From positions 124,001 to 188,000 of the forward strand of contig NZ_SMKZ01000003.1 in NCBI RefSeq assembly GCF_004349065.1: a stretch of 64,000 nt of DNA. Reading direction: 5' to 3'. Shown piece after piece: positions 668-64,000 of this stretch. The first letter of the stretch is position 1, and each line of letters opens with the position of its first letter. The DNA is from Jiangella asiatica. Its GTDB lineage: Bacteria > Actinomycetota > Actinomycetes > Jiangellales > Jiangellaceae. A model generated the notes under the pieces. It saw only the letters and a list, made by a program, of their open reading frames with translations. It had not been told where the DNA came from and did no database searches. Position numbers and translations under genes: made by a program.

Positions 668-3600
668 TTGACTACGAGCGGAATCCCACGACGTCGTTTT
701 CTCGAGCTGTCCGGTGGTGTGGCCCTTGCCCCGGCCCTCCTCAATGGTCTGGGCGCGCCGGCATCGGCCAGCGCTGAGACCATGTCGGGCCCACCCGGCG
801 TCGGTCAGGACGTGCCGCCGGCGTGGACCTGCGACTTGACCAGGAGATGGCTGCACGTCGAGCCGCGAGTGGCCATGCCGGGCCTGGTGGCGGCGTGGCC
901 ATGTGACGAAGGGTCTGGATACGCGTTTCGCGACGTGACGGGCAACGGGCACACGCTGTACGTCATCGGCAGCAGGTGGAACACCTCCGACAGCGGACTG
1001 ATCTCCTCGTTCCGGCGGCAGGGTCGGCGCGGCGGCGGCGTCCACCTGGACGGAACTCGATGGCTGCAGGCCCAGCACACGCCCGCACTCGATGCTGGCG
1101 GCGCGCTCACGGTCTCGGTATGGGTCCGGCCGGCGGAGCTGCCGGAGGCGGAGGTGTCGTTGCTCGCCCTTCCGGGCCAGTGGTCCGTCGGCCTGACAGC
1201 TGCCGGCGCGATCCGGTGGACGGTGGTCGGCACGGACGGCAACCCGCGCACCGCTCAGTCGCCGGACCAGGCAGTCGTGGCCGGGAGATGGGCCCACGTC
1301 GCCGCCACGGCCAACGCGCACAGTGGCCGGCTGATCGTCTTTGTCCACGGGTCGCGCGTCCGGGTCGTCGACGTCCCCGCGTTCACGCCGGCCGGCACCG
1401 GCGACGACCTGATGGTCGGGGAGGGTCTGGTCGGTGACGTCGACGAGCCCGCCCTGTTCGACCGTGCTCTCGGCGCCGTGGCGGTCGAACAGCTCTACCT
1501 CGTCGGCGTCCCTCAGCTGTACACGCAGACCCGCGAGACTATCGACGCCAAACGCAGCGAGTGGACCCGGTTCAAGGGCAGCGAGCCGATTCCGCATCCG
1601 GTCGACACGGACACGGTCTTCTCCGCGCGCTTCGACGGATCGGCGGTATCTGACCAGGGTGCCGAGCCGGTCCGCGGTACCGCGTCGTTCCGGCCGGGGC
1701 GGTTCGGCGCGGCCCTGGCCGGATCGGACGACGGCATCGGCTACGCCTCACCCCTGGCCGGCTCGGACGGCACCTTCGAGGCCTGGTACGTCCCGACTGG
1801 CGGAAACCGAGGCGGCGAACTGTTCCGAGCGGCCGGCGCGCACGGCTGGCTCAGCCTGTCGCTCGTCGCGGACCGTTGGCGCGCGGACCTGGGCACCGGT
1901 GAGGTTACGACCCACACGGTGACAGGTCCGGCTCAGCGGCTGGTGACCTCGACGCTCGAGCACGTAGCCGTGGCCTGGGGAGACAGCGGCGGTGACCGAC
2001 TGCTGACCCTGCACCTCAACGGCGTCGACGTCGCCAGCGTGCGCATCGGCTCGGCGGACACGCGATTCGACCGGAGCATCACGATCGGCGGGACGGCCGG
2101 CTGCGTCGTCGACGACGTCCACATCTCCGACCGCGCGCGCGGGTGGGGAGAGGTGTGCCCGAGAGGTCACGCCAGCACTGACGCGGCGGGGCTCGACCTT
2201 CGCGACGGATTCGGCCGGCCCGACGGCACGATCCCGTTGTGGTGGCGGCCGGGTGGCTCCGAACCGCTCTGGACGCAGGCGACCCGGGACTGGGAGGACG
2301 TCGCGGCCACCCAGGACGACCCACACCGTCACCGCGCGCTGTACTGCCCGGCCGACGCGACGCTGCACACCGTCTTCCATCCCGATATGTACGGTGTGGC
2401 CTCCTCGATCGAGGCAGGGCTCGCGTTCGGGGTCGTCGCCGACGGTTGGGCCGGCGTGTTCGTGCAGGCGACGGAGCCGACTGGGGCGCTGTCCGGGTAC
2501 GCGTTCACGATCAACCCGGGCACCGACGAGCTGCGACTGGCTCGGTACGCCGACGGTGAGATCGCCGAGCACAAGACTCTCGACTACGACTTCGAGTTCC
2601 GGCCCGAGGCGACCTATACCCTCACCCTCACCTCTGCCGGAGACGGCGTGCTGCGCGGGTTCGTGGACGGGCACAACCTGATCAGCATGCGCACCGGGGA
2701 CCAGCCGCTCACCCGCGGCCACGCCGGGCTCCTGGCCCATGGTGTGGCGACGTACTTCGACGACGTCCACTTCACCGCTCTCACGCCGGCAGCCGCCGAG
2801 TCACGCGAGATACAGGCGCGCGTTCTGACCTTCGGGGACCGCGTCGCCTACGACGACCTGTCCGCCCAGCCCTTTCGCTGGCACAAGCGGCACGGCCTCG
2901 TCCCATGGCGGTACCAGACGAAGAACCCGGAGCCCCCCGGCCTCCTCGTCGGCGCCTACACCGACGATCCGCCGCGACCGATTCCCGCCGCGTTCTGGCG
3001 GTCGGGCGACAGCGCGAACTCCGATCTCAACCAGATCGACGGGCGGATCTTGTACTTCATGCGAGGGGGTGGAGAGCGGGGCGACTGGTCGTACGGCGGA
3101 CGCATCGGCGTCCTCGACACCACCGTGGACCAGTTCGACGGCATCCACTTCAACGACCGCAACCGCGACATCTCCGATCTCGAGAGCGGCACCTTCCTGC
3201 AGGGCAACTTCGACCCGCACTATCCCGACCTGCAGGACCGGTTCCCTCGCTTCAACCTCAATCCAGCACTGGCCGTGTACGCCGGCGACGGCCGGATGCT
3301 CGTTTTCGTCCACGAGATGCGCCCCAACGACCCCGACTTCTCGACGCGGTACCGGGTGATCGGATACGGCTACTACGACGTCCGCGCCGACGACTGGATC
3401 GACCACACCTGCCGGCACGTTCCGTGGTCGAGCATGGACCCCACCGACCCGGACGCACAACGCACCGGGATCCTGGGCGGGCCGGAGGTGGTCGGTCTGC
3501 GCGACCCCGACACCGACGAGTACCGGATCGTCCTTTACTACCAGAGCACCAACGCAGACGGCCACCAGGCGATGACCACCGTCGGGATGGTCATCGACGC

Positions 3601-60856: not shown

Positions 60857-61402
60857 GAGGAACTCCTCACTGTCAATGTGAACGAACGTGATCGACGTGC
60901 GGATGGTCGCAAGTCAGCGAAGACGTCGGCCGCACAGCGCCGAGCACGGACCGGCGGAACGTGGGTGCCATTCGGACATCGGTACAGCTCCTGTTCGGGG
61001 AGTTCGGTCAGGGGCAATGCTGCCGGTCGCCCGTCAGGATCCTGTCAGGATCCTCAGTCGGCAGCGCTTTCTCAGCAGATTCCCAGGGACCCGCGTCCGA
61101 CTCGTCGTGCCGAGGTCGACGAGCGCCATGCCGGTTCGTTGCGTGAATTCCCCGAATAAATGTTCAGGAATCCGTCACCGCCGCCCCGTTTTGCGCGAAC
61201 GCCGCGCCGGGATAGTGCTGTCACTTTACCTGTGTGCGGCCGATTCCGAATGGTGTCGACGTACCAACCGCTGGGAGCATTTTGGTGCAGAGAATCGATG
61301 CACGCAGAGCGGACGTGCGAGAGCCTGGTCAAACTACCTGGGCGTCCGGGACGGGCGCAGGTACCAGGCGCGGCGAACCAGTGTCGTGGCACAGGGAGTG
61401 GG
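60857..61402. other. 546-bp intergenic region
   Basis: Divergent spacer between the PBP4 gene and the fused remnant. No convincing gene. It holds an exact 11-bp tandem repeat at 61033-61054 and an A/T-richer patch around 61147-61175 (CCCCGAATAAATGTTCAGGA) that may include promoter sequence. Confidence 0.4.
61033..61054. repeat. 11-bp tandem direct repeat
   Basis: GTCAGGATCCT occurs twice head to tail without a gap. An 11-bp direct repeat is the usual layout of OmpR/PhoB-type response-regulator sites. It lies about 180 bp upstream of the PBP4 gene. Confidence 0.5.
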
Positions 61403-61604
61403 ATGAGTACACACGAGGACAACGGCTCGGAGCCCCGCCCCGCGTGGGCCGCGTGGATCGACGGCCGTCTACGCCCAGCTGGCGAGGCGACGGTGCCCGT
61501 GTGGGATCGAGCCTTCCTGTACGGCGACGGCTGCTTCGAAGGCATGCGGGTGCGCGATCACCTGTTGTTCCGGGCGCCCGATCATCTGGCCCGCCTCAGC
61601 CGGG
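61403..61604 (+). pseudogene. class IV aminotransferase N-terminal fragment
   Basis: From an ATG with a good GGGAG site, 65 or so residues match the start of branched-chain/D-amino-acid aminotransferases (WAAWIDGRLRPAGEATVPVW, FLYGDGCFEGMRVRD, DHLARL). The frame then becomes Arg-rich nonsense exactly where a fumarylacetoacetase-type sequence begins in another frame. The PLP-lysine part is missing. Confidence 0.75.
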
Positions 61605-62138
61605 GCGGTGGACTGGGAGGCCGAACTCGGCGTCGTCATCGGTGCGGCCGCCCGGCACGTTCCTGTCGACGCCGCGCTGGACGTCGTCGCCGGCTACACA
61701 GTCGTCAATGACGTGACCGTCCGCGACTGGCAGCACCGCACCCGCGAGTTCCTGTCCGGTAAGACGTTCGAGGCCACGACGCCCGTCGGCCCGACCCTGG
61801 TCACTTCCGACGAGCTGCCGCCTGGAGCGTCGGGTCTCGAGATCAGCTGTGCCGTCGACGGGGTCGTCATGCAGCGGTCGACGACATCGGACCTGCTGTT
61901 CTCGGTCGCCGAGATCGTGTCCTACATCAGCACGATCACCACACTCCTGCCGGGAGACCTCATCGCGACCGGCACTCCTGGCGGGGTCGGCGCGGGCCGC
62001 ACACCCGAAGTCTGGCTGCGCCCCGGCAACGAGCTCGTCACGACCGTCGAGGGTGTCGGCCAGCTGCGGAACCGCTGCGTCAAGGAAGAGGTCACGATCG
62101 GCCCGGCGTCGGGGAGTCTCACGGTCGGCCCGGGCTAG
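61605..62138 (+). pseudogene. fumarylacetoacetate hydrolase-family C-terminal fragment
   Basis: About 176 residues begin VDWEAELGVVIG, where the metal-binding Glu pair lies in this family, and continue through YTVVNDVTVRDWQ, GKTFEATTPVGP and LIATGTPGGVGAGR to a natural stop. The N-terminal third is missing. A GTG at 61608 could start translation, but the piece is joined directly to the aminotransferase fragment and is probably a deletion relic. Confidence 0.7.
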
Positions 62139-62345
62139 ACCGGGGCCGTCATCCTCGACACCGCTCGTGACGGTGACCGACCTCGCGATAGAGCAGATGA
62201 CCTGGATGGCGAGCCGCGCTGGCGTCGAGTCGCGCACGGGCGGCTTCCTCTGTTTCATTTATAGCAGAGTTCCGCCGTCCTCATGAGCGCAAAAATTTGC
62301 ATCTAAGGTGGCCAACCTCAGATCGAGCTGATGAGGTGAACCACC
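62139..62345 (+). promoter_or_regulatory. helR leader with hairpin over the ribosome binding site
   Basis: GGTGG (62307-62311) and CCTCA (62316-62320) can pair with CCACC (62341-62345) and TGAGG (62332-62336), each arm split by four unpaired bases. The TGAGG is the likely ribosome binding site and the structure ends at the start codon, so it could limit translation. An A/T-rich CAAAAATTTGC lies just before it. No clear rifamycin-type regulatory palindrome was seen. Confidence 0.45.
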
Positions 62346-64000
62346 CTGACTACCAGCGCGTTTGATCTTCCCGACCGCCTCGCCGCCAAGGCGGACCCGG
62401 CGCTGATCGCCGCCGACGAGCGGCACTTCGTGGACATCGCGGAGAGCCTCGAACAGACGATCGCGGACCTGTCCGGCCGCCTGGACTCCGAGCGCAAGGC
62501 GCCCGGCGGCACCGGCCAGGAGGCGATGGACCGCGACCTCGAGATCCACCGGCTGACCGCTCGCCTGCGCACCCTGCGTCGCTTCGGTCTGGACCTGTGC
62601 CTCGGGCACATGGTCGCCGCGGACGACGCCGAACCCGTGTACGTCGGGCGGCTCGGCCTCACCGACAGCGCGGGCCGCCGGCTGCTGCTGGACTGGCGCG
62701 CTCCCGCGGCCGAGCCGTTCTTCGGGGCGACCCACGCCAATCCCATGGGTCTGACGAGCCGTCGCAGGTATCGCTGGACCCGCGGCCGGATCAGCGACTA
62801 CTGGGACGAGGTGTTCACCGCCGACGGGCTTGCCGACGACGCCGCGCGCGTCGCCCTCGATGACCAGTCCGCCTTCATCGCCAGCCTGAGCGCCAACAGG
62901 TCGGCCCGGATGCGAGACGTGCTCGGCACCATCCAGGCCGACCAGGACGCCATCATCCGCGCGGGATCGCGCGGCGCCCTCGTCGTCGACGGCGGTCCGG
63001 GGACGGGGAAGACCGTCGTCGCCCTGCACCGTTCTGCCTATCTCCTCTACGCCGACCCTCGCCTCGAGCGCCGGCGGGGCGGCGTGCTGTTCGTCGGCCC
63101 GCACCAGCCCTACCTGGCCTACGTCGCCGACATCCTCCCCGGCCTCGGCGAAGAGGGCGTGCAGACCTGCACGTTGCGCGACCTCGTCGCCGAGGGAGCG
63201 TCGGCCGCGGCCGAGGCCGACCCGGAGGTCGCCCGCTTGAAGTCGTCCGCGGACATGGTGAAGGCGATCGAGAAGGCCGTCAGGTTCTACGAGGAGCCGC
63301 CGTCGGCGGGTATGACGGTCACCACCCACTGGGACGACATCTGGCTGAGCGCCGACGACTGGGCCGAGGCGTTCGACGCACCTGACCCCGGCACCCAGCA
63401 CAACGAGGCACGCGACCGGATCTGGGACGAACTGGGCACGATCCTGCTGGACAAGCAGGGCGGCGACGTCTCCGCCGAGCCGTTCCGCAAGTCGCTGCTG
63501 CAGAACACGGAGCTGCTCACGACCTTCAACAGGGCGTGGCCGCTGCTCGAAGCGACCGACCTCGTCGGCGACCTCTGGTCGGTGCCCGCCTATCTGCGGA
63601 TGTGCGCGCCCTGGCTGAGTCCCGACGACGTCCGGACGCTGCAGCGCGGCGACGCCCAGGCCTGGACGGTGTCGGACCTGCCGCTCCTCGACGCGGCACG
63701 GCAGCGGCTCGGCGATCCGGAGGTGTCACGGCGGCGTCGCCGCCGCCAGGCCGCCGTCGCGGCTGAGCGCGAGGAAATGCGCAGGGTCGTCGACCACCTG
63801 ATCGCCACGGACGACTCCGAGATGATGGTGATGTCGATGCTGCGCGGGGAGGACCTGCAGAGCACCCTGGTGGACGAGACCGCGCTGCCCGGCGCCGATC
63901 CGGACCTGCTCGCCGGCCCGTTCGCGCACATCGTCGTCGACGAGGCTCAGGAACTGACCGACGCGGAGTGGCAGATGGTGCTGCTCCGGTGCCCGTCCCG
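62346..64000 (+). CDS. helR: HelR/HelD-like RNA polymerase-recycling ATPase, partial, CTG start
   Basis: The frame is open from here to the right edge (over 550 codons). Beginning TTSAFDLPDRLAAK, it shows an N-terminal coiled arm (residues about 25-80), LDWRAPAAEPFF, Walker A GGPGTGKTVVALHRS and IVVDEAQELTDAEW as Walker B, the HelD-type superfamily 1 layout. HelR proteins remove stalled or rifamycin-bound RNA polymerase. The start at CTG is inferred because a stop codon lies nine bases upstream (TGA 62337-62339), the next in-frame GTG/ATG would cut the conserved N-terminus, and a GAGG site is correctly placed. The C-terminus is outside the window. Confidence 0.88.
   Translation, partial: MTTSAFDLPDRLAAKADPALIAADERHFVDIAESLEQTIADLSGRLDSERKAPGGTGQEAMDRDLEIHRLTARLRTLRRFGLDLCLGHMVAADDAEPVYVGRLGLTDSAGRRLLLDWRAPAAEPFFGATHANPMGLTSRRRYRWTRGRISDYWDEVFTADGLADDAARVALDDQSAFIASLSANRSARMRDVLGTIQADQDAIIRAGSRGALVVDGGPGTGKTVVALHRSAYLLYADPRLERRRGGVLFVGPHQPYLAYVADILPGLGEEGVQTCTLRDLVAEGASAAAEADPEVARLKSSADMVKAIEKAVRFYEEPPSAGMTVTTHWDDIWLSADDWAEAFDAPDPGTQHNEARDRIWDELGTILLDKQGGDVSAEPFRKSLLQNTELLTTFNRAWPLLEATDLVGDLWSVPAYLRMCAPWLSPDDVRTLQRGDAQAWTVSDLPLLDAARQRLGDPEVSRRRRRRQAAVAAEREEMRRVVDHLIATDDSEMMVMSMLRGEDLQSTLVDETALPGADPDLLAGPFAHIVVDEAQELTDAEWQMVLLRCPS

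Follow-up and report, generated by a model that had tools for sequence, protein, structure and literature searches.

The closest described relatives of the locus examined here are the Class II HelD (HelR) genes MAB_3189c of M. abscessus and SVEN_6029 of S. venezuelae, whose products belong to the same protein family (passages of PMC10719064 and PMC8655204). According to these excerpts, two putative promoters with a palindrome between them lie upstream of the gene, as they do here. The name RAE and the position of this element at two promoters are given in part of PMC10719064, and in passages of that paper and of PMC12802891 the element is flanked by a TATAGC box and another −10-like box, a layout that the putative boxes of the present locus share. 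Its rifamycin-sensing mechanism is described as unresolved in part of PMC12802891, and an excerpt of PMC8655204 reports that some HelR-group genes, including one of Frankia alni, have no clear RAE ahead of them. The dual convergent promoter alarm of B. subtilis helD (PMC12802891, in part) offers a further likeness, with two promoters before a HelD gene and a possible role as a rifamycin sensor; there sense and antisense promoters converge, whereas both putative promoters of the present locus point at the gene. Set against MAB_3189c and SVEN_6029 as the excerpts describe them, the gene studied here has a start apparently displaced by an insertion and a palindrome unlike the RAE.

The gene lies at the end of a 64,000-nt stretch of Jiangella asiatica DNA, here called the window, and its earlier identification as helR is borne out by a match of its product to NCBIfam NF041254 (motor_HelR) that scores 1295.1 bits against a cut-off of 750 and spans profile positions 1–706 of 706. 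By family, HelR is an RNA polymerase recycling ATPase that frees RNA polymerase from rifamycin. Four of 12 genomes of the genus, the present one included, carry this HelR type. Comparison of the window with a 192-kb contig (C91) of one same-genus relative, G004, found similarity confined to 62281–64000 and none elsewhere. Farther upstream, an open reading frame at 61479–62138 encodes a C-terminal domain of the fumarylacetoacetate hydrolase type (Pfam PF01557, 190.2 bits) without the first 44 profile positions, and the frame ahead of it (61340–61708) reads like the start of an aminotransferase and has no Pfam match; the two are perhaps a fused remnant of two genes.

We consider it likely, from comparison with related loci, that the region before helR combines a displaced GTG start with a promoter pair around a palindrome placed like an RAE. 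Relatives start at a GTG, ATG or TTG nine bases upstream of the present CTG, usually with GGAG 8 nt ahead, and CTG or TTG is their codon 4. In this genome an extra base shifts GTG 62336 out of frame, the GGAG site is short by one G, and translation would then begin at CTG 62346 with GAGGTGA. Transcription would proceed from putative promoters P1 and P2 on either side of CTCATGAG, laid out like an RAE but in other letters.

The promoter block upstream of helR

The elements of the block are as follows.
62260–62265, plus strand: TATAGC, putative −10 box of the upstream promoter P1, exact at six of nine block loci
62280–62287, no strand assigned: palindrome CTCATGAG, exact at seven of the nine loci, occupying the place of the RAE of other helR genes
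62304–62309, plus strand: TAAGGT, putative −10 box of the proximal promoter P2, present at seven of the nine loci, with a presumed transcript start near 62316

A block of the form TATAGC – CTCATGAG – TAnnnT was recognized at nine helR loci and is complete in six, namely this one, G011, G007, L119, L114 and L146. Among the incomplete blocks, L074 and L116 lack an exact TATAGC, L116 carries TTCGTGAG, and G004 has ATCATGAG and no TATAGC; the two loci without TAAGGT read TACGGT and TAGCGT at its position. The nine loci are related sequences, so that counts based on their alignment lean on kinship, and L119 and a later match, L151, look alike and may be one organism. When 393 genomes of the class were sampled twice, allowing at most 3 mismatches, parts of the block turned up in 4 and 5 genomes, always before helR. 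A sigma-70 consensus scan of 62140–62400 found no promoter, and the proposal of P1 and P2 is therefore based on conservation and spacing.

The spacing is close to that of the RAE, whose letters we take to be a 19-bp palindrome of the GCTTGCGGCAAG type, with a core that differs from CTCATGAG. An oligonucleotide upstream of M. smegmatis arr matches these letters (PMC7882622, in part). For comparison across relatives we used 85 genes, consisting of this one, G004, G011, G007, G016 and the best 80 of 577 relatives; G018, which the anchor motif missed, and L146, which was found later, stand outside the counts. An RAE core lies within 400 bp upstream at 52 of the 85 helR loci (at most 2 mismatches of 13; best 80 of 577 relatives included). 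Among those 52, again including the best 80 of 577 relatives, 46 have a TATAGC whose start precedes the RAE centre by 22 nt, and 48 have a [CT]AnA[AC]T box that begins 21 nt past that centre. Here TATAGC starts 23.5 nt before the centre of CTCATGAG, and TAAGGT follows that centre by 20.5 nt, an agreement within 1.5 nt on each side between boxes that are putative promoter elements. No canonical RAE palindrome occurs in the 400 bp upstream of this helR, where the best match has 7 mismatches in 19, and the genome as a whole has no match with at most 2 mismatches of 18; five of the 12 genus genomes have one. The two elements also differ in the genes they accompany: whereas the CTCATGAG block was confined to helR in the 393-genome samples, canonical RAEs of the genus precede rifampin-monooxygenase-like genes. 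We infer that helR regulation is mainly transcriptional, from the promoter pair TATAGC 62260 and TAAGGT 62304 flanking CTCATGAG.

Several neighbouring observations concern the same elements. G011 carries a canonical RAE (L175) ahead of a gene for a rifampin monooxygenase, whose product scores 849.8 bits against a cut-off of 800, and G007 carries one (L174) ahead of a gene for a similar protein; in both genomes helR itself is preceded by the CTCATGAG block. In Streptosporangium amethystogenes (L074, upstream of position 3001) the CTCATGAG block adjoins helR and an RAE core lies about 375 nt upstream. On the minus strand of the present locus, a terminator-like hairpin ATCTGAGGTTGGCCACCTTAGAT followed by GCAAATTTTT (62323–62301) could stop antisense transcripts, and a TATAAA box noted by eye is a candidate antisense promoter. 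A search of open-licence papers, judged mostly by title and the opening of the abstract, brought up none that treats a helR gene starting at CTG or CTCATGAG ahead of helR.

The start of helR in this genome and its relatives

The features around the start are listed below.
62307–62345, plus strand: imperfect inverted repeat with arms GGTGGCCAACCTCA (62307–62320) and TGAGGTGAACCACC (62332–62345)
62333–62339, plus strand: GAGGTGA, Shine-Dalgarno-like, ending 6 nt ahead of CTG
62336–62338, plus strand: GTG, the counterpart of the relatives' start codon but here out of frame, opening nine codons and a stop (62336–62365)
62337–62339, plus strand: TGA in the helR frame
62346–62348, plus strand: CTG, codon 4 (Leu) of relatives and possible start in this genome
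62346–64000, plus strand: helR, 737 codons counted from CTG 62346, running beyond the window end
62430–62432, plus strand: GTG, alternative start at codon 29 from CTG, whose use would drop 28 conserved N-terminal residues

The CTG, the in-frame stop (TGA), the GAGG site (within GAGGTGA) and the imperfect repeat are present as the original prediction described them. That prediction also held that the in-frame stop rules out an upstream start and that the conserved N-terminus begins at CTG; as a statement on the gene family, this is not borne out by the aligned starts of related genes. In 77 of 84 relatives, best 80 of 577 included, an in-frame start codon (GTG in 59, ATG in 12, TTG in 6) precedes the CTG position by exactly 9 nt, and in 82 of the 84 one lies within six codons. 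Of the 77, 70 carry GGAG or GAGG in the 20 bases preceding this upstream start, and 56 have GGAG at 8 nt (best 80 of 577 included). The relatives' CTG or TTG is therefore their codon 4, usually leucine, as in M-N-P-L-T-T-S-A-F. Codons interchange at that position, which holds CTG in 48, TTG in 17, GTG in 3, ATG in 3 and codons unable to start in 13 of the 84 relatives, best 80 of 577 included. G018, read by eye, and L146 likewise have GTG nine bases upstream of the CTG position.

What sets this genome apart is one extra base between GTG and CTG (GTGAACCACCCTG here, GTGAACCCCTTG in G004), together with the reduction of the upstream GGAG to GAG, one G fewer than in relatives. Because of the 1-nt insertion, GTG 62336 is out of frame and TGA 62337–62339 is in frame; the stop is thus a product of the insertion. 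GAGGTG stands directly before the codon here, in G004, G011 and G007, and in three further rows of the 85 (best 80 of 577 relatives included). This site could act for either CTG or TTG, which makes CTG a possible start. CTG 62346 is the first start-capable codon past the in-frame stop and the only one that retains the entire conserved N-terminus. Judged against its relatives, the CTG is an ordinary internal leucine codon, left as an apparent start by a one-base insertion. The claim of a CTG start thus survives for this genome only in altered form: the codon may be the start now, but as a remnant and not as a conserved rare start. If the sequence is correct, we lean slightly towards translation starting at CTG 62346 with GAGGTGA, probably weakly. 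Starts at CTG are rare: initiation data for M. tuberculosis show ATG, GTG and TTG enriched and CTG not (PMC9094748, in part), and E. coli work cited in a passage of PMC13068326 places CTG among the less efficient codons.

Two of the 84 relatives, best 80 of 577 included, have no in-frame start inside six codons, L126 and L083. At L083 (Nonomuraea typhae, near position 3001) helR is without the usual GTG and has GGAG 9 nt ahead of the codon-4 TTG, so drift of the start to codon 4 may have occurred there too. A block like ACCTCAGATCGGAGCTGATGACGTGAAC just upstream of the start (62315–62339 here) is common to many helR loci of different genera and is kept where sequences farther upstream differ; what is conserved there seems to go beyond a ribosome site.

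Leader folds and competing explanations

The original prediction combined the CTG with the inverted repeat, proposing that a selected rare start and a hairpin at 62307–62345 masking the ribosome site keep HelR low until induced. We regard this as improbable, although parts of it stand. This genome offers no in-frame start upstream, the arms GGTGGCCAACCTCA and TGAGGTGAACCACC are 79% complementary, and the repeat folded alone (42 nt) has a z of −2.96, better than 198 of 200 shuffles with 2 as good, for boundaries that were picked after the fact. With flanks the signal was weaker, at a z of −1.78 for 61 nt (10 of 200 shuffles as good) and −0.75 for 69 nt (43 of 200). GAGG is paired in predicted folds of longer leaders, as had been proposed, and the repeat is largely conserved within the genus: against 11 of 11 pairs here, G011 and G007 keep 10 each and G004 keeps 8. 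Outside the genus this conservation gives way, with 6 pairs at L074, 7 at L116, 5 at L119, 7 at L114 and 6 at L146. Across the nine loci there is no covariation (70.7% of cells paired against a shuffle mean of 69.5%, one pair changed on both sides), and the U-A pair of the hairpin, which uses the inserted base, is found only here. In register with CTG, the inner 5-bp stem is complete in none and the outer in one of 84 relatives (best 80 of 577 included), a count unfair to the inner stem because the insertion in this genome shifts the register; when a one-base slip is allowed, 6 of the 84 have the full inner stem and 1 the full outer one, again including the best 80 of 577. The matching 61-nt fold of G011 forms the inner stem with different outer pairs, and G004, G007, L074 and L116 adopt other minimum structures, that of G007 including the inner stem. 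Part of the conserved TAAGGT (62304–62309) is shared with the outer left arm, GGTGG; if TAAGGT is a −10 box, an RNA starting near 62316 would be without that arm, and for RNA from 62317 formation of the hairpin is not predicted. That CTG is an internal codon in relatives also argues against a selected start. The hairpin is a real repeat of this genome, partly common to the genus, and is unproven as a control element.

Masking could instead depend on the promoter used: modelled P1 RNA (from near 62271) would pair the ribosome site with CTCATGAG, P2 RNA (from near 62316) would leave the site free, and a shift from P1 to P2 would raise translation. Prediction for this leader gives such a fold, which is also the consensus of the nine sequences, the arms match over 10 of 10 bases in G011, and shuffles as good as the P1-length fold number 6 of 200 here, 4 of 200 for G011 and 0 of 200 for L119. 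The corresponding numbers for G004 and G007 are 57 and 45 of 200, no compensatory change was seen, and pairing in the outer arms (82.7% against a shuffle mean of 83.5%) and in the inner hairpin (86.1% against 86.0%) does not depart from that of shuffles; the stretches may be conserved as DNA sites instead. We think this switch has little likelihood. An assembly error, in which helR keeps the usual GTG start and the extra base is an artefact, is unlikely as well. The frame is kept in 3 of 3 same-genus relatives and in 77 of 84 overall (best 80 of 577 included), the 7.03-Mb assembly is in 134 contigs, and the insertion is read from one sequence of the genome. As a control, another contig of this genome (57 kb) was compared with the proteins of G007 and G004; each matched 42 genes, and the finding that none was split by a frameshift makes an assembly error less likely. 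Internal stops appeared in 3 and 1 matches. In the reverse comparison there were 2 and 4 splits along with 4 and 3 stops, all of which we took for over-long query frames. The extra base, moreover, is no simple homopolymer change, and the old start is also affected by another difference close by (GGAG to GAG). It is doubtful, though conceivable, that helR is weakened in this genome or that its translation begins at GTG 62430, giving a protein without its first 28 residues. Alignment with M. smegmatis HelD begins only at HelR residue 29, and codon 29 is GTG here, as in 2 of the 85 rows in all (best 80 of 577 relatives included). Against this, the remaining frame is intact over 737 codons, residues 1–28 (62346–62429) are strongly conserved across the 85 rows (best 80 of 577 relatives included) with the consensus kept here, and no clear ribosome site is seen by eye before 62430. 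Changes on this gene's own branch in codons 2–28 (2 replacement, 3 silent) are too few to be of use. The displaced GTG start with a promoter pair around CTCATGAG has its own difficulty in that TATAGC is missing or changed at 3 of the nine loci.

Implications for helR control

The insertion that displaced the GTG start replaces the reading of a conserved CTG start with a simpler one, and the expected N-terminus of a resistance-type factor is thereby corrected. More tentatively, CTCATGAG between TATAGC and TAnnnT is possibly another rifamycin-responsive element that has no sequence kinship with the RAE and replaces it before helR in some actinobacteria, with the start in this genome having also slid to the old codon 4 beside GAGGTGA. 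If so, the two-promoter geometry and not the letters of the RAE would carry the response, and helR of this genus would be inducible without an RAE. A natural promoter with near-RAE spacing and another palindrome would offer a way to separate geometry from palindrome as the carrier of the response.
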